A stretch of DNA of 64,000 bases from Xylogone sp. PMI_703 (Eukaryota > Ascomycota > Leotiomycetes), in the NCBI GenBank assembly GCA_021399445.1, contig JAJTUQ010000001.1:7564001-7628000 (forward strand), given 5' to 3'. Positions 9,841-64,000 of this stretch are shown in pieces. Each line of letters opens with the position of its first letter. Position 1 is the first letter of the stretch. Made by a program: the position numbers and the translations under genes. Under the pieces are notes generated by a model. It saw only the letters and a list, made by a program, of their open reading frames with translations. It made no database searches and was not told where the DNA came from.

Positions 9841-12800
9841 TCATGATCTACTTGTGCTTCGTGTCTCGCGCTCAATTTCCGTCCTATACCATCTTGCGCC
9901 TTCATCCATCTGTTCTCTTATCCTTTTAGCCTTTGCAAAGAGCTCTTCCTCGTCGGCATCTGCAAAACTCCTTTTATAATTAAGGTCTTTAGGCTCCACG
10001 ACCTCCGCGAAATGGGCTTTGGCATTTTCCTTAAGCTTCTGCATTTCTGCGCCCCTTTCAAGATCTATCCATAGACGCCCTATCTCAGGTGTTCTGGAAG
10101 TAATACTGTCGGTTGCGGCCTGCTGCTCCCTTTCACTAGGTGATTCTGAGAATCTCAGATTATCAAATGAGCGCTGCTTTGGAAGGATTTCCCTTGCAAC
10201 TGATGTAGCAAGAGGCGTACCATCGGGCAAAGTCGTTATCCCGCGGGCTTTTAGGCGAAAATAATTAGTTTGCACGCCACTGATCTGTCGTCGGTTCTCG
10301 TCACTCCAGGTATAATTTGGGAGAAGATGTATCCTCGAACCACCAGTTAGGTAGGAGGGATCTGAAAGTAGAGAACGTCGCATGGCATTATTAGACTTCA
10401 CACGCTTATGGCTTCGTCCTGGAGAATCTGGACTTGATGTTGAGCTTGGCGTGTTTTGCATGTTCTGGACCACCTTTCGCTTCCCATTATCCGCGACAAT
10501 GTGGGCATCATTTCCTGCATATGGGGGGCTATATGAGGACCCATATATGCTACTTCCATTCTCTATTGCATCTCTCTGAGAGTTTCTCGCTGATTGTCTG
10601 AAACCTTCCACTAGGTTATTTGACTCCGCCGCTTTTGACGCTTTTAGACTCTCCGCCATCTCCCGTCGAGCTTGTCGAGCCTCTCGACCTTTACGTCGGA
10701 GCCATCTGTGGTGTGCATTTTCCCGCCATAGATGGCCATATTTGGTTGCGAGGGACCGATATCTAAATAGATCAGCTTCTTTGCGAGCCTGGCGTTCGGC
10801 TTTCTTGGCCCGTTTCCTTTCTACTTGCTCAACGAAAGCTAAATATGTTTCCTCTAGAATATCTTTGATCATGTATGACGTGAATTGATCAATAAGGCCA
10901 TCATCACCAAGTGCCACCCAGTTGGAGAATGAGCGCATTCCAGAGCTTAGGTCCACCTGATCCAGTTCTGTGCCTATTAACGAGTTGGACTTTTGTTCAG
11001 GAACAGCCTCTGGAGTATCTGTCTGTTTTTTATCGAATAGACCAGTTTCAGGTGATCCTGATACTGTAGTCGGCGAGGGTTTCCCCGATAGCGACGCAAA
11101 AGGCGAGACTTGAGGTATTGCTTCATTTTGGAGACTCCCAAGGAGATTAGGTATACCAGGTGGTTCTAATTTATTACTCTTGATTGAGGGAAATTGAAAT
11201 ACCTTGGTAGATTGTCCTTGCTGTGCATCTGATGTTTTCGAGCTTTCGCTGTTGAAAGAACCACTCAGTGGGAAACCACCAGCGACTCCCTTTGATGATT
11301 GACTAGGAAGCGGAACAGCACTAGGTAGCTCTCTTGCCGACTCCTCGGTTCTAACTTGCTCAGAAGTAATAGGTTGCAGGGTACTCGGTAGCGGTTGGGA
11401 TAATACAGTACTGCTCACAGGGAAATGAGACTCTAGACCGGCCTCTGGGACACTAGGCTGCGTTACGGTTGTAGCTGGCTTGCCAAATAATTCATCGAAG
11501 GATTTCGGTGCCGGGTTCCAGTTGAACAATGGTTTTGGCGTTGACTCAATCTGCTGAGCTGAAGTCTGTTCATTTTCATTTTTAGTGCCCAATAGGCTCT
11601 CGTCGACATCTGAAGAGGCATTTCGATCGTGTTCAATCCTTGAGGAAGAGCCTATCTCTTCCTTTGAAACAGCTAGCTCGGGGGCATCAACAGCCTGATA
11701 ATTATCCACTACAAATGGACTTTCAGGAACGTGAGCATCTTCTACACTGAGTGGTGTCGTATCATATAAGGTTGCATCAATAACCTCAGGAAGTGAATGG
11801 TTACCGCGCTTCTTCTCAACAAGGCAGTATGAATGTGGCTGCTTCAGTGGTGGAAATGGGTCTACCATTTGATCGTCAGAGTCCAGAGACAGATATTGCT
11901 CTCCATCGATATCATCAAACTGTAAGCCGTAGGCCTCGCCGAAGGCAATGATTTCTGACTCGTTGTCGAAGTGCAAATAAGCGTTGAGCCTTCTCAGAGT
12001 CCAATCCTTTGTCTGGTCTCTTTGCTTCCGGTAGGCAACAAGTATGGTCTTTAAGACGGATTTTCGAACGCTGTTGAAGTAGACTTCCGCAAAGCAAGCC
12101 ATAGTATAAGAGACTTTCGGGTTCTGGACGATGGAAAAAAACCGAGAATAGGCATTCAAAGCCACATCCGTTGCGGAGTGCGGTTTCAACGGACCTCGAG
12201 TGTCCCAGGTATTTTGGAGTGTTTCAACAAGACTCACTGCTATCTTGATTTCTTCAGATCCCCCCCAAAATCTCCATCCCCAGTCTTGCACTGTCTCCAG
12301 AATCCCCGAATTATGACTGTTGAATAAGACATAGTATGCTCTAAACTCAGATTCATTTTCACAAGATATACCCTGGGCCTGACAATCTTCATATGCGTGG
12401 ATAAGAGACAATAAAGCTTTTCCTAGTTGCTCAACTTCCTGTTGCTCGGAAAAGTCTTCAGCTACTATACCATCTTTCGACATATGATGCAAAGCTATGA
12501 CATGGAACCGAGTTATCCTTTCCAAACAGTAAACTTGGTCATGGAGTTCGGCCGGGCTCATTGATGACTGAAACACAAAATCTCGTCTTATTGCTCTCGT
12601 GCGATCCCATAAGAAACCATGGACGGAGGGTAATTCAGTCTCATCCCCTAAAACAGTATGGATAAGATAATCAAGTGTTCTTTTCAGCGCAGCTGGTGAC
12701 CTTACGTCCATTGGTAGTGGTGCATCCTGTCCAGCTGCTGATCTTGCTAATGCTTTCACCATTTTTGCTGGGGAGGGCCACAGTGAACCGTCCGGTGCTC

Positions 12801-14030
12801 TTTCCTTTTCAGCATTTTGAACATCGTGTTCAACAATTCTTGTAATCTTTTCAAACTCTGGACACATATCCTCACAAGTCCCTTTAAAATCGATAGCCTC
12901 GCTAAGCTTCTTCGGTTTATCTGGATCGTCAAGGTATCCGCTTCGTATGAGGCTTGCCCGCACTTTATTTCTGTACGTTTTTGTTTGCTGCCAGAAACTT
13001 TCGACGGCAGATTTATGCTTAGGATCTCCAAGATTTTGTGTCGGCGAAGATGGTTTAATGATCCCTTCTTTCCGTAACACTTCAGCCATCTTTTCTGCTA
13101 GCGGACTAGGTTTATGAGCCGTCATAGATAACCCACTCAATTTCGGCAGTTGAGGTGTTGGTGACTTAATAGCATCGCTAGCAAGAGAGTTGGCGGAAGG
13201 TGTGCCAAACTGGATGCTGCTAGAAGATGATGGGGCGGAGAAGATGTTCGAGGCTCCATTATTCCTGAGTGAAGTAGCTACAAAAGGATTTGACTGGCCA
13301 ATGCCAGAGGGAGCTCCGAAACCACTACCAAGTGGTGTGCTAGAAGGTCCCAGGACATTTTTGGGAGGAGTTCCAGGGAATGAAGCGGAATTGTTCGTAT
13401 TGAAGGGGTTTGAAGATGGCTGAGAAGGGGCTCCGAACGCATTTGCTTGTGGCAAGCCAGAGGGAGCGAACGGATTAGTGGTTGGTTTGAAAGGGGCATT
13501 GAATGGGTTGAGTGCCGTCCCATTCAAAGCAGGCATAGATGAAGTTGATGTTTGCAGAGCGAACGGGTTCATTTTCGGGAGGGCTCTGCTATCGTCGAGA
13601 GCATTACCCGGAGGTTTAGGTGCTTCCACGCCTGCAAATTTCACTTGCTTATTACTGGGTGGGCCAGTGAGCGACCCTTTGGCACCCCGCGGCGCACTCG
13701 TAGTCCCGTTGGTGATCTGTCGAAGTTGCTCGCGTTTTGTAGCATTCTTGAGTCGCTCCTGCTCAAATGCGTTCGTATTATTCGAAATTGGAAGTGCCGG
13801 ACCTATAGAAAGTTTGAGCACTTCTTTTGCTTCATAATGACCTCCCAAGCCTGGGATAAGCGCTTTCATGGGGTTCTACCCAATGGCGCTAACCAGCTTG
13901 GTTGGTTGCGATCATACTCACTGGAAGAACTAGAAGCTCCTCGACTGGTCGAACCGCGACCTCTTGCTCCTCTTGAACGATTTGATGACTGGCCTCGCGT
14001 GCTTTTATTACCACTGCCTCTTAGCAGCAT
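9841..14030 (-). CDS. sac3: Sac3/GANP-family nuclear mRNA export factor (TREX-2 scaffold)
   Basis: Scaffold of TREX-2, which links transcription and mRNA export at the nuclear pore. Exons 14030-13922 and 13850-9841; 1372 aa. Exon 1 encodes an RGG-type basic stretch (SRGARGRGSTSRG). A 71-nt GTGAGT...CCCAG intron then joins it in frame to the GGHYEAKEVLKL segment. Next come nucleoporin-like NPF/FG repeats (about residues 120-260) and the SAC3 domain from KGTCEDMCPEFEK (about residue 359). The long acidic/Ser-rich middle again carries PF and FG motifs. The C-terminal part is basic and coiled-coil-like. An ATG at 13869 could start a shorter protein lacking the RGG exon. The family call is firm; the first exon is good but inferred. 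Confidence 0.92.
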
Positions 14031-42739: not shown

Positions 42740-45700
42740 TCAAGATTCGCCCTCCTTATCAACGGACTTTCCTGCAGATGCAGGAGTTGCCTTTGTTAAC
42801 TCAGGGGAAACCGATGTTGAGGGAGGAGAAGCTGGGTGCTCCGTCTCACCGGAACCTAATCCTGCAAGAAGACTAAATAAAGTATGTTAGCAAAGGACGG
42901 GACTTAAAGTAATCGATAAAGAACAAATACCTGAATGCATTTGCTGAGCTAGCAGACTCTTTTTCCTTTTGTTGAGGAGGTGTGCCTGTTCTTGATGAAG
43001 CTCCCGAATCTTCACCAGTTCTGCTCAGTGAACCACCTGGGCCCATCTTGCGACCACTGTTGCTTCGCGATGAGAACATGGAGGTAGGGCCAAAGGACAT
43101 CTGCTGGCTAGCTTGGCGGCTTGCACCACCTTTGTTAGCAAGACGACGTAGATCATCCATGCCAACCGTGTTCTTCTGATAATCAACAGGGGGTTGATTG
43201 CCGTATTGGTTTGAGAAGTTTCGAGAGTCTCCCCTTCCGATCTGCATACGTCCTCCACCACTACCACGCTGACTACCTCGAGCGGTCTCTACGGCCTTCT
43301 GGGCGGCCGCGGCCTCAGCCTATATAATGTTAGATGTTTATTCATTGATGTAAGTGTATATACGAGAACATACCTCAGCTCTGATTTCTTCAAGCGTCTT
43401 TGGACCTTTGTCAGATTCCTTTGAAGCCCATCGCTTCCTACGAAGATCTACTATGTCCATAAGCATGAATCGAAGACGACTCGGTAATTCAGGTGTGTCG
43501 ATCATTGTTTGGATGCGTGCGAAATAGACATCCATCATAGGTCGGCCCTTTTCAGTACTATCAAGGTTGGCACCAATAGTCTTCAGTAGTTTCGTCAGTG
43601 ACTCGATTTCAGCCTCATCTGGAATGCCGGTGTAATCCACAAGCTTCTTGACACACTCATGCATAATACGTTCAGTAAGCATGCTCAACTTGTAGAGTTC
43701 GCCGATAAACTGTACCAAACCAAGACCACGTCTCTTGGCAGCAGCAGCAGCGTAATATTCGTCCGACATCATAACGGCTTCTTCGGTCTTTGCTTCTCCC
43801 TCTGGCTTCTCAGGGAGATTGACCTTCCAACCACGCTCGAATTCTTCCTGGCATCTATTGAGTAGGTACTTCCGGAACAGATTGCCTCCGGAGACAACGT
43901 TGCCATTCTTATCAAGAATAGATTCATCCTTGATGTCAGGACTCATCGTCTCTAGCATGCGCTTACAGAATTTCGCATACATAGAGGCCCAGTGAGCTTC
44001 ATCCGTGGCCTTCTCGAAGGTAAGCTGAATGACCTGCCGCAGTGTACGCCCATCTGCTTCATCCTTTGATTGTGCTGCGATAGCAAGGATTTGGTCGGCA
44101 ATCTTATCAAACTTCTCCGGAGTCATCTTGTTGAGTGCTGCCTTGACCTTACGTTGGACCATGTCAGGTTCCATATGTCCACCAGGAGTGGGCCCAACGG
44201 CACCAGTAGCAGGTTTTTGGGAACCAACACTGAGGGGCTTCCAACCATTAGCCGTAACCTCAATAGGCTTGACTTCCATACCAGCTGTGAGCGGCATAGT
44301 CTTGGCAGCCTGAGCTTCGGCCTTTGCATTCGAGGTAGAGTATTCACCGCGTCTACTGCTATTACCACCTCGTTGAGACTTGCTCTGCTGGCGTGGCGAA
44401 TGGGGCATACCCATATTGGAACTCGAGGGTGTTCTATTCATAGCAGAGCCGCCGGGGAATGCTCCACCAGGACGGTTGAAGGAGGTCAAAGGATTGCTAC
44501 CGGCAGGTCGGTTCATATTCGACATGGCGAAACGCTGTTCCGATGTAGTTCCGGCTGGTAGCGTCTTGCCACCTACGCCGAAAGTACCCATCATAGTATA
44601 TCCAGAAGCAGCATTTCGGTTTGATCCTTGCCTGGGACCCATGCCTGAAGGGGTTCTTGTAGAAGACCGTGCTGAACCTCCATCCGTATCGCCGATGAGA
44701 GATTTGATCTGTGATTCAAACTCCAACGAAGGTTTCTCAGTAAATACCTTTTGGAATTGTAGCAAGAACTCTTTATCATATTTGAAGCTTCGACCTTTGG
44801 CAGCTGTGTTGAGTGCTGGATTTGGAGAACTGATGTTTGGTGGATAGAGACTTGAATTAATGACAGTGAGGAACCGAGCAGATTTGAGTGACTGAAGGGC
44901 AGCACTTGGTTGAGGGGGCTCTACAGGCTTGGTATTGATTGGAGCAAGATTGAGTGCAGGTGGCTTCGATCTCTTTTCCGTAGCTGAAGGCTTTGGAGGT
45001 GGTCCCATTGAGTCATCTGAAGCAGGTGTAGAAGCACCGCTGTCGGTACCAAGAGTCATATTAGAGAGCTTGGATGCCAAAGTGCTGGGCGTGAGAGGAG
45101 TTGACTTCTCTTCCTCCTTCCCATCCAATTTGTAGCTCTTCTTCAATTCGGCCTCAACACTGGATTTACCACTCTGACCCTTTGCTTCGGCTTCGGCTCT
45201 CTTACGCTCACGCTCGTCCTCAAGGCGTTCCATCTCGCGTTCAGCCTCCCGTAATTTGCGGTCATTTTCCTCCGCCTCGGCGGCATGTTTCTCAGCTTCG
45301 GCTTTGGCAGCAGCCTCCTTCTCAGCAGCACGCTTAGCAAGAATTTCAGCTTCCTTCCTCTCTCTTTCTGCCTCTGCTTCTTCCATCTCCCGGATTTGTC
45401 GTTCCAGCTCCTCTTCCTCTTCCTGCTTCGCCTTCTCTGCTGCAGCCTTTGCTTCGGCCTCCTCTTTGGCCTTCGCTTCCTCGGCAGCTTTTGCCTCTTG
45501 CTTAGCCTTTTCCTCCTCCTTTGCTTTCGCTTCAGCTGCAGCTTTATCTGCTTCAGCAGCAGCCGCTGCCTTAACCTTCTCCATCATCTCTGCCTTAATC
45601 TGATCCTGGGTTTTAGCAGGTGCAGTACTATCAGACCTTCCGTGTTGCGGGGTCATTGATTTGGGTGGTGGGGTTGGTGTAGATACAACTGGAGGAGTTC

Positions 45701-47625
45701 GGGTGCGATTGCTAGGTGCTGGGGAAGCAGGGGCCTTGAAACTCTCGACATCTAGAGCCTCACCATCAGGTCTCTTGATCTGGATAGCTTTATTTACTCG
45801 AGTTGGGATGGTGAATGTAGTTGATGCGCCACTAAGAGGCTTAGACTGAGGTGTATGCGTATGAGGAACAGGAGCGGAAGGAGGTTGAGCTTGGCCCATG
45901 CTTGAAGCAGGTCTATGTTCAGACATCTGGGACGAGTTCCGTGACATGGGTTGAGCTTGAGCGTATTGGCCTGCGATATAACCAGCCTGCTGAAAGCCAC
46001 CTTGGGGGGGTTGCTGGGGTCCGTTCATATATTGTATCTGGGGGTACATGTATGGGCCTGGTTGCATGGGCATGGGCATACGGTTATCGAAGCCCTGAGG
46101 TGGATAACCTGCAAAATTCTGTCTCGAAGTTAGAAACTGATCAAAATTGCCACTCTCGGGCGAGAAATCTATCTTTGAAATTGGAAGAGGTAGAGAGAAG
46201 GGGAGAGCAGGGGGAAGTGGAGGAAGTGTGAAAGGGGTTTGATCAAAAGGCTGATGCCCGGAGTTTGCTTGTACTGGTGCACTATCATTCGCAGGCTGCG
46301 TATAATGACCATTTTGTAGACACTCCGACTGCATCAACCCTTTCTTCACAACAAACTGTCTGTTGATAGGCTGCAATGGCATTGGCTCATTAGCGCCATA
46401 AGTATGACCGAAGAGCTCCCTTGTAGATCCTTTTGGTCGATTGTGGTTTGAGAACTTCTCATTCCTATATTTGTTGCTCTTGTTGCGTATCTTATGATTT
46501 GAAGTTGACTGGGTTTTTGAAGTAAAAGGGTGATGTACTTGTGGTGGTGGCATATGTGGGTTGTAATAATTTGCATATTGGGGTGGGGTTGGCATCGGTA
46601 TCGCCGCACTCATATTTGGAGTGCCCGGAATCGAGTTCGACATAGCTGGGCTACGAGCGGTTTGGTGGGGTGAATTTGGATACGGGCGTGCTTGACCCTG
46701 GAACTGCGTTGGCATACCGCCCCGTCCTTGGTTACCGTTGCCTCTGAAAGGCGGGCCTGCAGGGGGGTAGCCCATCTGTTGCTGGTATTGCGGGTTGTAT
46801 CCACCACGTCCCCGGCCTCCTTGCAGAGGATAGCCACCACGTCCTTGGCTACCAGGTCCCTGGTTACTCATATCACTCTGTACAGATTGCGAGGATTCCC
46901 TACGAAGGTGACCTGCTTGGTTACCAGGCGTCAATGGTCCTTGTGAACTAGATGCTTGTCTCATATGACGCTACATTATTAGTTAGCCGGTACTCTTAGA
47001 CTTGCAGAATGAACATGCAGAAACTCACATCGCCGTCACCACCAAGACTGCCGAATGTTGGCACACCATTTCCTTGCTGGGCAAGGCCAGAAGGTGGGCG
47101 TCCGCCGCTTGCGGACGGCTGAGGAATAGGAGAAGGTGATTGTGCCGGCGAGGTTACTCTAGGATTGCTTGGGATGGGGATTGGGGCAGAAGCTGGCTGA
47201 ACAATCTGTGCAGGAGTGCTTCTTGGAGTCGTAGACTCCGTTATGGATCCAAACTGAATTCCTCCCTTGGAGCCTCCGACGGGACCACCGTTTGCGACTA
47301 TAGTCACAGAACTTTTACGGCTATGTGCCGCAGAACCGTTAGTTGCAGAGCTGCTGTGGACGATAGCAGGTGCAGCCACAGCCGGTACAGCAGGAGATAT
47401 CGATGGTCTGCCGTTCACTGGCGAGATGGATGCAGACTTCCCATGTTGCTGTACCGGCACAGACCCTCCGACAGCCACGGCGGGGGATGGAGTTGAGCCC
47501 GTCGCGATGGGTGGCGACGAGACTGCCTTTTTTGCCGTAGAAGCGTACGACGGGGTCGACTGTGCTGCACTAGAGGTGTTTGAGGCCTGAGCTGGGATTT
47601 GTGATTGTTGAGACACAGAAGTCAT
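42740..47625 (-). CDS. eif4g: eIF4G, scaffold of the cap-binding complex eIF4F
   Basis: Bridges eIF4E, eIF4A and poly(A)-binding protein during translation initiation. Exons: 47625-47029, 46970-43374, 43319-42931, 42872-42740; 1571 aa. The N-terminus is Ser/Thr/Ala/Pro-rich; next come RGG/QQ-rich segments and a long Ala/Glu/Lys/Arg helical repeat (encoded about 45150-45600). An eIF4E-binding-type motif lies in the FKYDKEFLLQFQ segment (Y-x4-L-L). The MIF4G domain follows (about residues 1130-1380; MVQRKVKAALNKMTPEKFD onward), then a basic Ser/Arg/Gly tail. Within exon 2 a stop-free 420-nt stretch (46119-46538) has splice-site-like ends, so the true protein may be 140 residues shorter. Confidence 0.94.
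46119..46538 (-). other. possible in-frame intron (exitron) inside eIF4G exon 2
   Basis: Begins GTACAT after a PPPQ codon string. It ends with TTTCTAAC, six bases, then GACAG, a good branch site and 3' splice site. It is exactly 420 nt (140 codons) with no stop in frame. Removing it joins MPPPQ directly to NFAGYPPQGFD. The encoded residues (about 344-483) are Lys/Asn-rich, unlike the flanking Gln/Pro/Gly-rich protein. Confidence 0.5.
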
Positions 47626-50163: not shown

Positions 50164-51861
50164 CTACCATCCTTGAGATTCGATCCTCAAAATCCATCTT
50201 GAACACATCTTCAGTCTTTCTCTTACACTTGTTGTCTGCAACAATTCATACTTCTCAGAATCTGGTATGGGAAGAACACTAGCAAACCACCATGGAAACA
50301 GCGCGGGGTCAGTAGGACAATCACCGAAAGGCAAAACTTCTCTTCGATATAACCATGGGGCACGCTGTTCCTTCATCTTCTTCACAAATGCTGTACCAAA
50401 ATCCATTAACCCCTGAGTCGGCATGCTATCAATATCATTCATGGTAAGCTGTACAGTATGATCTCCCAGTGGATTTTCATGAGGTGGGATGTTGAAATTA
50501 TCATCCACCAGAGCAGTTTGTTGATTTGTCTGAGCTGTAGACGTAGTTTCAGCTGTTTCGGCCGCTTCTAAGGATTCTTCTGCTGCTAGACTAATGTCAT
50601 CTAGTCGTTCGACCTTGCCAACGAGATAGCCATCAAGAATACTATGTTGGGTAACCTTGAACCGGGAGACTCCAACAGTTTCAATCAAGCTACGGCCGTC
50701 AGGTAAGAGATGCATGGATACAATACGGAGGATTGTCCCATATTGACAGAAAGGTACAACACCTAATTCCCCTTGGACCTCACGGGATGAGTTGTACGGT
50801 AACATCCCAAATTTGCGATCCCCGCTTTCCATCGCACGTCGTATCATAAGTCGATATCTCGGCTCAAAAATGTGCAGAAAAGTTGGCATTGATGGGAAAG
50901 CTAGCATGCATACAAATAGAGGGGTATCAAATTCCCCCATTCCAACGGCATCCTCTGTTTTTGCCACTTGCATTCGTGATACAAGGTCGTCTGGAAACAG
51001 ACCACCAAGTAGTTTGGTCAAGAATGCGTTTGCAGGAGTCTGGGAGCTCATCGGTGGTGGTATTGCCAGTCGCCGGCGACACACTGGGCAGAGATTTGAG
51101 TTGTCGAGGACACGCTGCAGGCATTTTCGACAGAAGGTATGTCCGCAATTTGTAGTAACGGGATCTAAAAAGAGCGCATAGCATACTTGACAGTCCAACT
51201 CCGGTCTCATGATCTCTTTCAAGCCTTCTAGGAGAGATTTGTCCAGAAAATCAGCAGCTTCAGGGGTTGGTGATAAGCTGTCGAAGATGACCTCTGCATC
51301 ATGTACCAGTTCCCCAATCTCTGCCATAGTATATGCGGCTGCCAGCCGACCCCCAGGATATACTTTTGTCCTGGGTTCCTTATCCTGCAATGAAGATATT
51401 CCCGCTACGGCCCAGCTGTCCCTTTCTTCGACTTTCACCAGGACTTGGGAAGCATCTGACGAATTTCTGAATGCATCAAACCTCATTCGAACCACCTCCA
51501 TTATCTTGTTCAGCCCTACATCTACGCTGCAATCAGCCTCAGCGTGTTCCTCACCACAAGCTACAAACGGGCATCTAAAACCTTGTAGCCTATCAGGAAT
51601 GGCTGGATAAGATATATTGTGCCTTGGTTGTAATGCAGGGGTGCATTTCTTACACAATGTGTTCCCGCATGGTAGCGTTACCGGTTCATGGAAAGGAAGA
51701 GAACATTGCGAACATTGAACCAGCCTGATTATATCTCGGGCATCTTGTATAGGATCCAGTGTCCGGCCAGACGCATTGTTACTGGTAGAGGTGGCTGGGG
51801 CAGGCCGAGGAGTAGCTGACTCGAGGGATGAAGCTGTATTGTCGAAGGGTTGAGAGGACAT
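50164..51861 (-). CDS. RING-finger and LON-domain protein (LONRF-like E3 ligase candidate)
   Basis: Single exon, 565 aa; the frame is open three codons further upstream but 51861 is the first ATG. Two zinc modules are visible. The first is a RING-like CSQCSLPFHEPVTLPCGNTL followed by CKKC (about residues 50-75), with further Cys pairs to about 111. The second is a canonical C3HC4 RING, CQVCYALFLDPVTTNCGHTF followed by CRKC and CPVC (about 225-261). The C-terminal half is a LON substrate-binding domain (PLFVCMLAFPSMP, FEPRYRLMIRRAM, then GTILRIVSMHLLPDGRS and VERLDDI). This architecture matches LONRF proteins, cytosolic or nuclear ubiquitin ligases that bind misfolded substrates. No protease or ATPase domain is present. 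Partners are unknown. Confidence 0.9.
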   Translation of the reverse strand: MSSQPFDNTASSLESATPRPAPATSTSNNASGRTLDPIQDARDIIRLVQCSQCSLPFHEPVTLPCGNTLCKKCTPALQPRHNISYPAIPDRLQGFRCPFVACGEEHAEADCSVDVGLNKIMEVVRMRFDAFRNSSDASQVLVKVEERDSWAVAGISSLQDKEPRTKVYPGGRLAAAYTMAEIGELVHDAEVIFDSLSPTPEAADFLDKSLLEGLKEIMRPELDCQVCYALFLDPVTTNCGHTFCRKCLQRVLDNSNLCPVCRRRLAIPPPMSSQTPANAFLTKLLGGLFPDDLVSRMQVAKTEDAVGMGEFDTPLFVCMLAFPSMPTFLHIFEPRYRLMIRRAMESGDRKFGMLPYNSSREVQGELGVVPFCQYGTILRIVSMHLLPDGRSLIETVGVSRFKVTQHSILDGYLVGKVERLDDISLAAEESLEAAETAETTSTAQTNQQTALVDDNFNIPPHENPLGDHTVQLTMNDIDSMPTQGLMDFGTAFVKKMKEQRAPWLYRREVLPFGDCPTDPALFPWWFASVLPIPDSEKYELLQTTSVRERLKMCSRWILRIESQGW

Positions 51862-52692
51862 CCAAAACACTCGTTATGGTGGGGCTGTTGAAGCAGTCCC
51901 ACACAGAATCATTAAATGGTGCAAACCCCTGTGGGTTGTACTCAGTATTCTGTATATACTTGACTAGTGCGAGGAGTAGCCGAAGGTATTTGGGGCAAAG
52001 ATATAACCACTGTGGATTGACGAAAGGTGAGCGCACAGTTAGAGACAACAACAGAAGGAGGATGACAATTAGCAAAGCAGTAATTCGGTAACGGTATCAA
52101 ATGTTCATCTTTGAATACAAACTCTGCGAGGAACAGACGATTGGCGAGCGCACGAAGAGTAGAAGGTGATGTTGACTGGGTCGGTGAGAAACGATAGTTA
52201 TCACCGATCGCTGACCACTTCCGTGGTGGGAATGATGCGATCATTACGGGATCCAGGGACGCTTTAGCGAGATCCACTACATGGGTCGCCGATAGACGGA
52301 CTCTGGCAGGCCACAGGTAGGCCGGACCAGCATCTCGGTGGCTGCGGGGTAGCACTAAAATCTGGAGACGTCAGTGCTAGCCATGGCAGGAGAGGAGACA
52401 TCAAATCTACAGATATACTTCAATTGGCGTAATTGTTGGTGCAATTATTTCATTTATTCATTATCCGAGCTCTTTCTAAAGCTAGTCAATCTTTACTACT
52501 TAGCATATAGGATAATGGCATTTTAGAAGCAAAGAAAATATCTCCAGCATGCAGAGTAAATCCCTCCATTCCTTTCTGTGCAGTTCCATTCAATATCCTC
52601 CGAAATCTGGACTAGAAGAAGCATTCCCTTGGCTTCGCATACCTCTAGCAATAGGTATGCCAGTCCAGTTCATCGTCCTCACTGCGGTGCCA
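51862..52692. other. intergenic, RING-LON promoter and F-box-like gene 3' end
   Basis: No gene supported. A minus-strand frame (51942-52355) lacks family features and a matching exon partner. Confidence 0.45.
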
Positions 52693-56427: not shown

Positions 56428-59205
56428 TCATAGTGCTGGCTCCGTTTCCATGGCATCCCCGTTTGTTGTTATTGTCCCTGTAGCCTCTCTTTCGACCTGG
56501 GAGCTAGTCATATCCGCAGATTCCAAATCTTCATCCTTGAAAGTTCCCGTCGGGAAGCCGCCATCTGATTCGAGAGACATCTTCATTGTTAATTCGTCGG
56601 TCGGTTGTTCCCCAGAACTACCACTTTCGCTGAATATATAATTTTCGAGATTATTATAGGATTGTTCCAGATGACCATTAACTAAGATTTTGTCGTAGGT
56701 TCCCTCTACCTCTGATTCCTCTAATTCTTTCTTAGCGATATCTAGCCGTTGTTGTAAATGTTCTTCGGAATCAGTACCACGCTCACGGAGTCGCCGTTCT
56801 AGCTCAGAAAGATCCGGCGGTGCTAGAAAAAGAAATCGGGCTTGAAACCCTCGCTCCCTGAGTTGTCTAATCCCCTAGTTTTAAAGTTAGATGACACTGA
56901 TTATAGCATATAAATAGGCACATACGTTGAGTTCCATCTCCATAACTGGTATCTTCCCAGAGGCAATGATGCTCTCAACAACCTTCTGACTCGTCCCATA
57001 GTCATTTCCATTGAAATTATTGTATTCTAAGAACTCATCACCGTCTCGTAAGATATCAAAATCCGCTTGCCCAACGAAGAAGTAATGCTGACCATGCACC
57101 TCACCTTCGCGCGGGGTCCGTGTCGTATGGGAGATCTTTTTGCTGAATACTTTGGGATGTTTCTCAATGAGTAATTTGATCAGAGTGCCCTTCCCAACAC
57201 CGCTCGGACCTGATATCACTATGGGACGTCTATCTTTCGGGAAAGTAGTGTCATCAGAATCTGCGGATTCTTCTTCGGCATTCCCAGTTGGCTCTTCCGG
57301 TTTGATCTCATCTATAAAAATGCTGTCAATTTTATCGTACCGTTCGATTTTGTCGAATGTAACAAGCTTGGTAACAGTCGCAATACGCAAAGCTCTCCAA
57401 CTTTTACTAGCTTTTGCTTCTATTGCCGCATTTTTTGATTCTTCATCTCTCGCCATGTCGATGTCCATATCATCCAACTCCATTCTGCTCTTGAAACTTT
57501 TGATTGGTGGGATTTGATATCTGGATGGATCTTTCAGTCTTTCTAATCCGCCCTTGCCTTCGTCTTCTGTGAGGAATTTGAGATCAAGTGAGCCTAACGG
57601 CTGTGTGCGTAATCTCTTATTGGTAGTGGCCTTGCGAGCCGAGGCTTTGGCTGCTATATATTCCTCTGGGGTAATCGGAGGCTTCGATATTGAAGGACAA
57701 TTCTCAATTTTCCAGCGAACCCAGTTCTTATCACGGGAAAGAACAGTCTCAACCATGCGGTAGAAATAGGGGCCCTCATGTCCTTGTTTGAGGTATTCTG
57801 CAATTGTTTCCTTCATCTCGATAGCCCATTTGGTCTAGAGTAATGTTAATCCTCGCATTCAAAACTATTACATGTAGCACAATACTTACATCTTCTTCGC
57901 TAAAGGTCTGGTCTGCATAGATGACAGACTTATTTGGATTGTCAGGGAGGGTAGCCTTTGATAGCTTTTCCTTTGCTTTCGTACTTAAGGAGAGTAGAAA
58001 ATCCATAAGTACTAAAACTTGTACAAGGATGTGCCTTCGGAAAGATAAATCGCTGATCTATTAGTAGTTAACCATTAGGTTCATAAGATTACCCGGGAGA
58101 CCCACCTCAAGTTCAAAGAGGTCTCTACTAGTAAGGTATTTAGGATTGAATGAGTTGGCAAGGTCATCATCACCAGAACCTCTTTTTCGCTTTATCCCTC
58201 TTTTGTTCTCATCCACAATTCTGGTAGGGCGTCCATTACTTTCATTTTGAACTGACACAAACACATCCATGGTAGCTTCTAGACCGCCCCTAAAATTTGC
58301 CAATCGCTGCTTATCAAATAGCTTTTTAGGTTGGCTGAAACTTTCCTGCAGAGACCAAAAAGTAGGGTATAATTTGTCAAAATCTTTGGATGCATCCGGA
58401 TTAGAGAAAGTCACAAGCTTTGAAGGGCCATTCCGTTCTTCTCCAGATTTTATAGAACTATTGGTATCGTTGTTGGTAACATCATCTACCATTTTCTCTG
58501 TATCAAGTTTCTCGGGTGGCTTATCGAAGGTAGTGACGTTCTCTACATGATATTCGCCGCGCAAATTGACCGAGCTCTTGTCACCCAACGGAAAGCTCTG
58601 AAACATGAATATAAACACCCGACCGCAGAAGGCTGTGTCTTCTGCTCTTGAAAGCCGCCGTAGTAGCTCATTACAGCTTCTCAAAATAATCAGATTTTTC
58701 TGTGAAAAGTGTTTCGCTGTAATTCTTTCGCGTCGAGATTCAAGATAGTCAAAGATCCTCCGACAACCTGCGATAGTTTGGCTATCTAAGAGTCCTTCAA
58801 TAAGCCAAAACAGTAGAGCTGGATCGCATTGTTCATCATCGGAAAGTATCGATATGATGTCCAGAAGGTTCCATATTTTATTGAATGAGGGTGTATCAAT
58901 AGCGGTGGTCGCCTACACAGATGTTAAATGAAAGTGTACTCAGAGCAGACCTTAAGTCTCACCAGTAAGTCATTGAACGCGTCGAATACAGCCGTCTCGA
59001 TGATCGCATACTGGCTACGCTTTTTGATATCAGGTGCCGATATAGAAGCAAACATCGCATCGACTTCACCAAACAAGCTGTCGAGGTCTGACTTATTTAG
59101 AGGTTGCTCGACCGCAGTCTTCTCTTTGACTCTCTCTGCAGCTACCAGCATCCGAGCCAGAAGCTGGCCGAACGCATCCACCGCCTGGACTTGATGCCCG
59201 GCCAT
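56428..59205 (-). CDS. hpr1: THO complex subunit 1 (Hpr1/THOC1) fused to guanylate kinase
   Basis: Five exons: 59205-58963, 58912-58106, 58057-57890, 57834-56926, 56874-56428; all introns phase 0; 857 aa. Residues 1 to about 580 are THOC1, the THO subunit that couples transcription to mRNP packaging. Signatures are DLLATTAIDTPSFNK, CNELLRRLSRAEDTAFCGRV, FNPKYLTSRDLFELEISDL, SFRRHILVQVL and VLSRDKNWVRWK. After an acidic linker, residues 608 to about 800 are guanylate kinase: P-loop GPSGVGKGT, SHTTRTPREGEVHGQHYFF, FNGNDYGTS, APPDLSELERRLRERGT. The usual Asp-x-Asp before the QG turn reads Glu-Met-Glu-Leu-Asn-Gly, and VND reads VNG. A polar tail of about 60 residues ends the protein. No ATG lies close before the kinase, and the joining exon spans both parts without interruption. 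Confidence 0.88.
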
Positions 59206-59483: not shown

Positions 59484-62400
59484 ATGGCGCCCAGCGCAAG
59501 GGTTAAAGAAGATTCTCACCCTATCATCGATGATAGGAGGCCGACCATTGAGGATCTACAGGGTGAAAATGCCTTTGCACAGCTTGCGAAAAAGCATTGG
59601 CATAAAAGCTCGAAAAAGTCGACCAAAGTTAAGGTGCGGCCCGACATATTGAAGAACGATATTTGGGATGTTTTGGAGAAAGATAATTTCCCTTTCAAAT
59701 CTCTACTTATTTTGGAGAATTTGCAGATTTTAGAAAGGTATGTTCTCTCATTACCCCAAAGAGTATACTAATAGATATTATTAGCTATCTATGGCCGGGA
59801 TACTCTGAGGATGCGTCGAACTTCCATGTCCTCCTCATTGCGCTCATAGTAAATGTAAAGACACGGGAACATTTGGCTACATGGGGTAAGTCTTAAATAA
59901 AAGGGCGATGTTTCAGTTGCTAACAGCTACGAGACATATTCTCAGATAACCCAGCCGATTTCTCCGCCCTTTTCCGAAGAATTCTATCAATGGTCCTAGA
60001 TAACACATTATCAGCAACGATTAGAACTAATTTGATATGCTTTATCACCAGTGCTTTTCAATCATTGGACAGTGGTATTGTTAGGAAGGAATGCGCTCCA
60101 TTGGTGTCGATTTCGATATGGCATAACCTATCTTCGGACAAAAAGAGGGATCGAAAACTTGATCAGACTGTGCAGATAAGAAAGGCCTGGCGAGCTGCTG
60201 CAAAGAGATATGATGCTGCAGATGAGGCAACAAAACCGAGACTTCGGTTTGAGCGATCTTGGCTCTTTACGTTGATACTTGATTTTTTCAATCAGCTTTA
60301 CGATGAAAAGGCAAAAGCTGGTACGTACCGAACAATCATAAAACAAAGCTTTACTGATCTTTTTGCGCCAGAGAATATATTATACTGTGAACGCTTTATT
60401 GAATTTCTTTCAGATCTTCAAAGTCAATTACCAACTAGAAGATATGTCAATACTCTCCTACGAGACTTGAATGTCCTTCCAGCAATCCGATTATCTCCTG
60501 CTTTTAACGACGAGGGGAATTTTCTATTGCGTGATCTGTATTCCTTACTTAGTCATTATACTTACTTCTCAATCGATGATCATACTGGAATTCAACATAG
60601 CACGACAGAGGCTTACGATCGTTACTGTGCCAGACTAGCAACGCTGCAAAGAGTTGCTCTTAAGCATTTCAAAAATAAATTGATGATCTTAGCGTTATCA
60701 AATTATGCATCCATTGACAAACGATCGGAACTGGAGAGTCACCTAGCTGCCCTAACAGATGCTGAAGTTACTCAGCTTTGTGAACTTCTAGATTTTCGAA
60801 CATCCTACCCGCCATCTACTAAGGTTGTCGCCGATCGTCAATTTCTGACAGAAGTTCTGTTGGCTAGCTATGAAGGACGAAAGACATTCCAAGAGACCAC
60901 TCGTGATCTAAGTATATTACCAACGGAACACACTTTATTTGAGCCCTCGCTCCTTCGAAGCGATGGGTATAATGGATCCCAGCCACTAGCCATACCGAAG
61001 TTGAATCTACAATATCTTACTGTTGGCGATTTTTTGTGGAGGTCATTCATCCTTCACCGATCTGAGTCATTTTTTGAGATACGAAAAGATGTTGAAGATA
61101 CAATCAAACGATTACGCCCGGTACCTAGCCGTGGGGATACAGTCAATTTTGAAGGATTTTCAAAGATGGCTTTGCCGATTAGCAGACCTGCGTAAGTTCT
61201 AGTCGACAAATTTCCTGTATCATTGCTAATACAATCTAGGATCTTGGAAGCTGCACCTCCGCGTGTAGGAGACGATAAACCTGCTATAGTCAAAGCCGAG
61301 ATCACTCTTGATGTGAGTAGGTTAGCGGACAATATCCGTAGAGAATGGGATTCTCTAAGGCCCGATGATGTTATCTTCCTACTGGTTGTACAGGCCGTTG
61401 ATAATACAAAGTTCATATCGAATGGGGCGCCCGCCATTCCCTACGCTCAGAAATTGGGATTAAAGTCTTTGCGAGCTGCTGAAGTTATCCAAGTGCTGGA
61501 TGACAAAGGGAGATCGCTAAGAGATCCAAATAACGCATTCCACACGCATACCGCCCGCCCACGTTTACGGCGGATTCAAGTTAAATTGGACACTGCAATG
61601 TATAAAGAGGATATGACTCGAGTAGATGGCGGTAAACCGAACATTTATGAAAGTATCAACCTCATCATGCGGAGGAAAGGGCGGGAAAACAACTTCAAGC
61701 CTATCTTAGATTCCATCCAGAGTCTAACATTATCTAATGTTCCATTGGCTCCATGGCTTCATGAAGTCTTTCTCGGATATGGTGACCCTGCTGGAGCTGT
61801 CTACACTAATCTTCCAAATCAGATCCGTAGGGTTGACTATAGAGATACATTCCTTGATTGGCAACATCTAGTTGAGAGTTTGCCGGGCAAGACGGTAGAG
61901 CCAAGCGATGATGTGAATGGTAGCTTCGGGCCACCATATGTCCTTGAATTTAATAAGACAGAGGAAGAGCCCGCACCAGCTAAGCCGTCTAAAAAGAGGA
62001 GGCGTGATGCTGAGCCCTCATCGCAGGTTCAGCTAGAACAAGTTCGGGTGTCGACTTACAAGCCCCAAAATACTGGGCCCTATCCAGTAGACGCTCCAAA
62101 ACTCAATACCGTCCGCTTTACTCCTGCTCAGGTTAATGCAATAATCTCAGGGACGCAACCTGGTCTGACAGTTATCGTTGGGCCTCCAGGGACGGGGAAA
62201 ACCGATGTAGCAACCCAGATCATCAATAATCTATACCACAACTTTCCAAATCAGCGTACTCTACTTATCGCCCATAGCAATCAAGCTCTAAATCAGTTAT
62301 TTCAGAAGATAGTTGCACTGGATATTGATGAGCGCCATCTATTACGGCTCGGTCATGGTGAAGAAGATCTCGATACGGAGGCTAATTTCAGCAAACACGG

Positions 62401-64000
62401 CCGCGTCGAGTCGTTTCTGGAGAATCGAGACATGTATTTAAGGGAGGTTGACCGTCTTGCCACGAATTTTGGGGCTCCCGGTGCCCATGGCAGCTCAGCT
62501 GAAACGGCAGGATACTTCAACTCAGTTTATGTAATACCGGCATGGACCAGGTTCCAGGACGTCGCAAAATCTCCAGAATCAACTGTGGAGGCCATTATTC
62601 AAGCCTTTCCGTTCCATCACTACTTTTCCAATGCCCCTCAACCTTTGTTCCCTCCAGATGCTGACAGGGAAACCATCCTAGATATAGCAAATGGCTGCTA
62701 TTACCACATTAGAAAGATCTTTGTTGAACTTGAAGATGTTAGACCCTTTGAAATACTCCGACGTGATCGTGATAAGGCAAACTATCTTCTCACCAATGAG
62801 GCTCGAATAATTGCTATGACATCCACTCACGCAGCAATGAGAAGACGGGAAATAGCATCTTTGGGTTTTCATTATGACAATGTTATAATGGAGGAGGCAG
62901 CACAAATTACTGAAATTGAGAATTTCATACCACTTGCAATGCAAAATCTGAAGAATGGAGAAACACCACTGCAAAGAGTGGTCCTCTGTGGTGACCATTT
63001 TCAGAACTCGCCCGTCATTCAGAATCTCGCATTTCGCCAGTATGCAAATCTAGAACAATCACTCTTTGCTCGACTTATCCGTCTAGGTGTTCCTTCAATC
63101 AATCTTGATCAACAAGGTCGAGCGCGTCCTTCCTTAGCGTCTCTCTATCAATGGCGGTATCAAAACCTGGGAAATCTTCCTTTCGTGTATACATCTCCTG
63201 AATTCCAAACTGCAAACGCAGGTTTCAAGTACGACTTCCAGTTTATTCAGGTTCCCGATTACAAAGGCCGAGGAGAATCAGAACCTACACCACATTTCAT
63301 TCAAAATCTTGGAGAAGCAGAATATGCTGCTGCGATATACCAATACATGCGGCTTCTAGGGTACCCAGCTTCCAAGATTAGCATTCTGACAACATATGCT
63401 GGACAGCGCGCTCTTATTAAAGACGTGTTAGCCCATAGATGTGCTAAGAACCCTCTCTTTGGTCTCCCTAAAATCGTCACCACGGTAGATAAATACCAGG
63501 GCGAGCAAAATGACTGTATGTATTTTCCAATATTCCCGTGCATCTAGCATCCAAACTGACGTCCTTTTCTAGATATTATCCTTTCACTAACCCGTACCTC
63601 ACGTGTTGGTTACCTTCGTGATATACGCCGCCTTACAGTGGCCCTTTCACGCGCTAGACTTGGCCTCTATATCCTAGGACGACGGGAGGTATTCGAATCG
63701 TGTTTAGAACTTCGTCAAGCTTTCGAGATCCTACTACAGAGACCAGATAAGCTCATGCTCGTTACAGGAGAACTCTGGCCTAGTAGAAGGATTCTGGCTG
63801 AAGAGGAAGGCAACGCTGTTCCAGGAGAAACACAGATGGAGGGCGTAGAGCACCTAGGGCAGTATGTGTATGAGATGACGAACGCAAAAGTTATGCAGCT
63901 GAGGGCAGAAATGGGGTTGGCACCAGATGCACCTCTTCCACTTCAGAATGCTGGGGCAATGGAAATTCAAGATGAGGTTGAAGGCGCATATTACTCAGAA
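59484..64000 (+). CDS. cwf11: Aquarius/Cwf11 intron-binding spliceosomal RNA helicase (3' end outside window)
   Basis: SF1B helicase that joins the spliceosome at the intron upstream of the branch site. Exons: 59484-59737, 59785-59885, 59946-61191, 61240-63515, 63573-64000 and beyond; 1435 codons in the window, of about 1480 expected. The N-terminal ARMADILLO-like part (AKKHWHKSSKKSTKVKV, FPFKSLLILENLQILE, ERFIEFLSDLQSQLPTRR) is followed by beta-barrel and stalk (VGDFLWRSFILHRSESFFEI). The helicase core has Walker A GPPGTGKT (about residue 848), MEEAAQITEIENF, CGDHFQNSPVIQNLAF, LDQQGRARPSL, TTVDKYQGEQND and VALSRAR. Motif III reads GDHFQNSP rather than the animal GDHHQLPP. Partial only because the window ends. 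Confidence 0.95.

Follow-up and report, generated by a model that had tools for sequence, protein, structure and literature searches.

We describe a gene on the minus strand of a 64,000-nucleotide stretch ("the window") of the ascomycete Xylogone sp. PMI_703 (contig JAJTUQ010000001.1). It encodes, in one frame, THO complex subunit 1 (THOC1/Hpr1) followed by a guanylate kinase (GK) domain. This in-frame fusion was confirmed as real at the level of the sequence and, judging from protein matches, the architecture is widespread in Leotiomycetes and Sordariomycetes. We give an about even chance to the reading that the Xylogone protein carries a tethered guanylate-fold binding module as its conserved function. 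As the catalytic residues are still present in Xylogone, its GK may have kept GMP kinase activity as well.

Structure of the fusion gene and its protein

Splicing of the window DNA from 59205 to 56428 gave five exons that encode 857 residues and a stop codon (Table 1). The predicted product was identical at every letter to the deposited Xylogone protein P0001. The introns are 50, 48, 55 and 51 nt long, all four are GT...AG introns in phase 0, and in each a branch-point-like motif stops 9-11 nt short of the intron end. An earlier note, made from the DNA letters, had proposed this 857-residue frame with four phase-0 introns, and also a single exon running from the THOC1 end through an acidic linker into the P-loop without a stop; both were borne out. 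It had further seen no in-frame ATG just ahead of the kinase. The final in-frame Met ahead of the kinase is indeed residue 533, within THOC1 and 82 residues before the first P-loop glycine (615).

Both domains are complete, as the note had held. The THOC1 profile (PF11957) scored 512.1 bits against a cut-off of 27 and was matched over positions 1-479 of 490, as for a full-length THOC1/Hpr1, while the GK profile (PF00625) scored 172.4 bits against 25.2 and was matched over 2-181 of 182. The match of the fusion to human THOC1 in the PDB spans the THOC1 part only, and the bearing of this part on THO membership is that of a fold match. The structure model superposes on PDB 1gky at 1.5 A across 185 residues. 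We observed that P-loop, R38, R41, E44, E69, R131, R135 and R146 are all retained, that D98 and D100 are both E, and that D100 is also E in Xylogone Guk1; the catalytic roles we assign (P-loop, GMP site, lid arginines) are those that we take to hold for guanylate kinases in general.

Table 1. Features of the fusion gene; positions are those of the window
Feature	Position	Strand	Residues	Basis or remark
Exon 1	58963..59205	-	1-81	start codon 59205; splicing, identity to deposited protein
Exon 2, THOC1	58106..58912	-		splicing
Exon 3, THOC1	57890..58057	-		splicing
Exon 4, end of THOC1, acidic linker, N-terminal GK half	56926..57834	-		single open exon
Intron 4	56875..56925	-		phase 0
Exon 5, C-terminal GK half, low-complexity tail, stop	56428..56874	-
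efThoc1 domain PF11957	57268..58876	-	94-595	E 2e-153; span includes introns
Flexible acidic linker	57241..57309	-	~582-604	model confidence (pLDDT) <50 at 582-600
Guanylate kinase domain PF00625	56629..57231	-	608-791	E 1e-50; span includes intron 4
P-loop GPSGVGKGT	57184..57210	-	615-623	intact
Disordered C-terminal tail	56431..56622	-	794-857	pLDDT <50 at 794-854

We further searched the genome for other copies of the two parts. A single other GK locus was found, a normal stand-alone guk1 of 194 residues with one intron, which answers a check that the earlier note had left. The idea that the genome has no GMP kinase besides the fused GK was therefore rejected. The search found no second PF11957 locus (that is, no unfused THOC1), and the fusion is the sole THOC1 locus found. 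The donor of the guk1 intron lies at the same codon boundary and in the same phase as that of fusion intron 4 (ME/G versus LN/G); the guk1 acceptor was picked by homology, and an alternative AG 12 nt upstream is possible. Because the donor site is common to both, the fused GK seems to have arisen from a fungal guk1 by duplication at the DNA level. With fungal Guk1 it has in common the fold, the P-loop, the GMP site and this one intron site, whereas it belongs to a separate clade (below) and is 43.9% identical (82/187) to Xylogone Guk1. Horizontal transfer of the GK was not supported, since it groups beside fungal Guk1 and has this intron site in common with it.

Relation to MoGuk2 of Magnaporthe oryzae

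The earlier note knew of no description of such a protein. This part did not hold, as a protein of this architecture, MoGuk2 (MGG_06394), had been described in 2017; it has 810 aa, with an N-terminal efThoc1 and a C-terminal Guanylate_kin domain (Cai et al. 2017, PMC5732230; here and below as given in those parts of the text that were examined). Thus, of the earlier interpretation the in-frame fusion and its exon structure stand, and the claim of novelty falls to MoGuk2 and to the wide distribution of the architecture. The two functions suggested in the note, supplying or sensing nucleotides and acting as a MAGUK-like binding module, are both still plausible. The Xylogone protein (857 aa versus 810) is another member of this known family: it has the same two domains in the same order with a separate Guk1 beside it. 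What has been overlooked is the evolutionary story.

In the view of Cai et al., MoGuk2 is an atypical GMP kinase whose orthologues occur in "a few species"; it stands next to a separate Guk1 that resisted deletion. The MoGuk2 knockout grew 18-33% more slowly, formed 12.7% of the conidia and no perithecia, and was reduced in virulence; its GDP and GTP fell by 60.1% and 63.7%, and its GMP rose by 34.0%. GDP was raised in yeast expressing MoGuk2, the host being a heterozygous guk1 strain, and the authors concluded that MoGuk2 has GMP kinase activity. Among the domain-deleted versions, that lacking efThoc1 was worst for conidial shape and virulence, while those lacking the GK or the P-loop gave partial rescue, the P-loop deletion doing best. 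These data are consistent with a mixed picture, in which most of the phenotype may be loss of THO and the GK makes a contribution with little need of its P-loop.

In the parts of the paper examined, the mRNA-export role of efThoc1 takes up a single sentence, GFP, nuclear and Hpr1 had no match, and the sole match to "localiz" was the title of a reference. A review (PMC10879430) likewise treats MoGuk2 as a GMP kinase, with no mention of efThoc1 in the portions examined. Judged by titles and abstract openings, no further publication among those listed described a THOC1-GK fusion.

Distribution across fungi

A search with the GK part, confined by length to proteins of ~471-1500 aa, gave 66 matches. 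Of these, 18/66 were THOC1-GK proteins, mostly of Leotiomycetes, so the domain-architecture search suggested in the earlier note came out positive. With a profile built from 14 fusions, all of the best 120 of 1288 matches had both domains, by the Pfam annotation and by our own GK model (120/120), and came from Leotiomycetes, Xylariales, Glomerellales and Hypocreales. Fused proteins rank first here by design, because the profile includes the GK.

We also used a THOC1-only profile that admitted shorter proteins, and found a GK in 40 among the best 120 of 1923 matches. This added fusions from Sordariales, Trichoderma, Beauveria and Fusarium. Unfused matches came from Eurotiomycetes, Lecanoromycetes, Geoglossum, Sclerotiniaceae, Erysiphales and Diaporthales, and from two Lachnellula species, one Ophiocordyceps and Apodospora. 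This list spans proteins of 561-789 aa only, and therefore its Sordariales and part of its Hypocreales are length-biased. Among 214 motif-filtered THOC1 tails, 138 had a GK match and 76 had none even at an E value of 10; unlike the fusion, the examined copies from Eurotiomycetes, Lecanoromycetes and Geoglossum had no GK match in their tails. Clade labels follow the organism names of the matches and general taxonomy, and the sampling left out Dothideomycetes, Pezizomycetes and Magnaporthales.

Within Lachnellula, the fusion was seen in L. suecica (P0067) and not in L. hyalina or L. cervina (P0170, P0171). If the gene models are right, this pattern would date one GK loss within a genus. Separately, the guanylate kinases of several Aspergillus (P0018, P0021, P0022, P0023) are annotated with an additional PF10375 domain, which is either the result of two genes merged in annotation or a further fusion of a GK.

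Probable gain and losses of the kinase domain

A GK tree was made from 28 chosen fused GKs and 19 other GKs, with MoGuk2 and the animal GKPID sequences outside the set. The fused GKs (28/28) formed one clade apart from Guk1 with 100/100 support, adjoining fungal Guk1 (the bootstrap had not fully settled), and the branch leading to it was long (0.67). This single, fully supported clade favours a single fusion.

The THOC1 tree held 81 hand-picked proteins (46 fused, 20 unfused relatives and 15 outgroup) and was made by a quick method with Shimodaira-Hasegawa-like likelihood ratio (SH-aLRT) support only. The outgroup was separate (support 100), and the fused or unfused state needed 7 changes, with Grosmannia counted as unfused despite a degenerate GK (32.4 bits). 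On these sequences the most parsimonious history would be a single gain below the node of Leotiomycetes and Sordariomycetes, followed by six losses, although parsimony by itself cannot separate gain from loss. In the Erysiphales, the Blumeria protein terminates at PKEKRPTI, the point where relatives run on into the kinase, and this end is a relic of GK loss. The annotated Apodospora THOC1 (P0182) has an odd low-complexity tail in place of the GK of its relatives. This tail may be a faulty gene model or an out-of-frame read of a GK remnant, and Apodospora is therefore the least sure of the losses.

Residue decay and the hinge site

The full catalytic set was intact in 16/31 Leotiomycete fusions, Xylogone included; at least 6 of those 16 were from Pseudogymnoascus. 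The set of 31 includes Diplocarpon (three), Cadophora (two), Oculimacula, Rhynchosporium, Leptodontidium and Drepanopeziza. The idea that the kinase is intact throughout Leotiomycetes was thus rejected, as the 22/22 nearly intact proteins came from a motif-filtered subset. D98 is replaced by E in 27/31 Leotiomycete fusions, among them Xylogone. In the Sordariomycetes the full set was intact in 0/113 fusions, and the lid was absent in 27/113. The GMP pocket is nearly invariant, with E44, G79, R38, T80 and E69 retained in 153-157/157 sequences.

Conservation of the site columns was compared with that of 10000 random column sets in the 31 Leotiomycete and 113 Sordariomycete proteins. The GMP site was more conserved than random sets both among Leotiomycetes and among Hypocreales plus Sordariales, and the P-loop and lid columns fell below random conservation in Hypocreales plus Sordariales only (426/10000). 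In this old and repeatedly lost fusion the GMP lobe tends to persist for longer than the enzyme parts. This decay pattern, of catalytic as against GMP-pocket residues, looks new to the literature.

Position 34 is a serine in yeast, mouse and Xylogone Guk1. PDB 4f4j, which was aligned here, is yeast Guk1 with a proline at 34, and its title speaks of an enzyme converted into a spindle-orienting protein. As 4F4J is called the s36P mutant by Anderson et al. 2016 (PMC4718807, as given in the parts examined), our position 34 is their site 36. They reported that the s36P change by itself all but eliminated catalysis in a reconstructed ancestral enzyme and conferred peptide binding, that the peptide occupies the GMP surface, and that GKPIDs are one clade found in no sequenced fungus. 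In the THOC1 fusions, this hinge serine is kept in 26/31 Leotiomycetes and in 2/113 Sordariomycetes; in the remaining 111/113 it is replaced by R, Q, P, T, V or A. By analogy, the replacement suggests a parallel shift from enzyme to binding in fungi.

The likeness to the GK domains of animal MAGUKs lies in the GK fold, the change at hinge site s36, and a GMP surface still in use in GKPIDs after catalysis was lost. The THOC1-fused GKs group beside fungal Guk1 (in the tree without GKPIDs). The Xylogone protein, in addition, had no SH3 or PDZ domain in a Pfam scan, unlike MAGUKs, and its GK retains the catalytic set.

Possible functions of the fused kinase

The fusion gene encodes the THOC1/Hpr1 of Xylogone. 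We propose that a duplicated fungal guk1 was joined to THOC1 a single time, in the common ancestor of the Leotiomycetes and the Sordariomycetes. The THOC1 part (residues 1 to ~580) would serve to assemble the THO/TREX complex on mRNA as it is transcribed, presumably in the nucleus, and the kinase fold would hang off its C-terminus on the flexible acidic linker. What selection has maintained clade-wide is most likely the capacity of the GMP-binding lobe to bind a ligand, the candidates being a guanine nucleotide (GMP or GDP) and a peptide, phosphorylated or acidic, from a messenger ribonucleoprotein (mRNP) partner. Such binding would parallel that of animal MAGUK GK domains, and phosphotransfer seems dispensable, its residues having been lost repeatedly. 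A broader claim, which we hold only tentatively, is that fungi evolved their own GK domain for binding proteins or ligands on THO independently of animals, with catalysis lost in several lineages via the same hinge site and Leotiomycetes such as Xylogone as a still-catalytic intermediate. If this is true, GMP or a phospho-partner would regulate mRNP assembly.

Several observations weigh against a binding module. The nucleotide shifts of MoGuk2, in yeast and in the knockout, were read as enzyme activity by their authors and speak against a domain wholly lacking catalysis. The hinge residue is R or Q rather than P in most Sordariomycetes, and therefore the parallel with animals is one of site and not of residue. 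In the 66 Xylariales alone the GMP site was not clearly above random columns (1223/10000), and the P-loop and lid were not below random in all Sordariomycetes (5121/10000) or in Leotiomycetes (8872/10000). Finally, a GK lost about six times is not indispensable.

The fused GK could instead be an active GMP kinase adding to the GDP/GTP supply, the THO tether making it a nuclear or co-transcriptional source of GTP. We consider this rather unlikely. The MoGuk2 nucleotide data speak for it, as do the retained catalytic residues of Xylogone and the close fit of its model to 1gky. However, the yeast host was heterozygous, so GUK1 remained; a purified enzyme is absent from the parts of PMC5732230 examined; and loss of THOC1 could itself alter nucleotide pools indirectly. 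The absence of any full catalytic set in Sordariomycete fusions, the D98 replacement, and the normal guk1 of Xylogone also argue against it.

Less probable still is that the GK is a passenger, carried in by one fusion event and decaying under weak selection with its fold kept against misfolding. The roughly six losses, the Erysiphales relics, the degenerate Grosmannia copy, the long branch and the Xylariales GMP site are as expected of such a passenger, but the near-invariant GMP pocket, and a GMP site better conserved than random columns among Leotiomycetes and among Hypocreales plus Sordariales, are not. An annotation or assembly artefact fusing two adjacent genes was rejected: the junction lies within a single open exon on a 9.08-Mb contig, both domains recur in all of the best 120 profile matches, the Magnaporthe orthologue was modelled by other authors as a single protein and analysed through domain-deleted versions (PMC5732230), and, as many other genomes have the same joint, chance or assembly error is very unlikely.

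Neighbouring genes

The divergent neighbour at ~59484-63547 (+) is the intron-binding helicase Aquarius (PF16399, PF21143, PF21144, AAA_11/12). Its likely start, read from its frame, is ~280 bases from that of the fusion gene, and this short distance means that the two mRNA-processing genes may have a common promoter. The window also holds SAC3/GANP, which acts in TREX-2 mRNA export, at 9841-13875 (-), and eIF4G (MIF4G, eIF_4G1) at 43338-46970 (-). Together with THOC1 and Aquarius they make a striking set of mRNA genes, whose clustering is probably a coincidence. A single open frame at 50164-51873 (-) has a RING finger and a LON substrate-binding domain.

Implications

Across two large fungal classes, many species have the fused gene as their THOC1, Colletotrichum, Fusarium and Trichoderma among them, and yet the only study found of it regards the product as an enzyme of nucleotide metabolism. 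Should the kinase fold be a binding module, some of the MoGuk2 knockout phenotypes may be effects on mRNA export. The fusions of this clade also range naturally from those with a complete enzyme site to pseudo-enzymes without a lid, a possible replicate of the animal transition from enzyme to scaffold, which can be tested at a known site.
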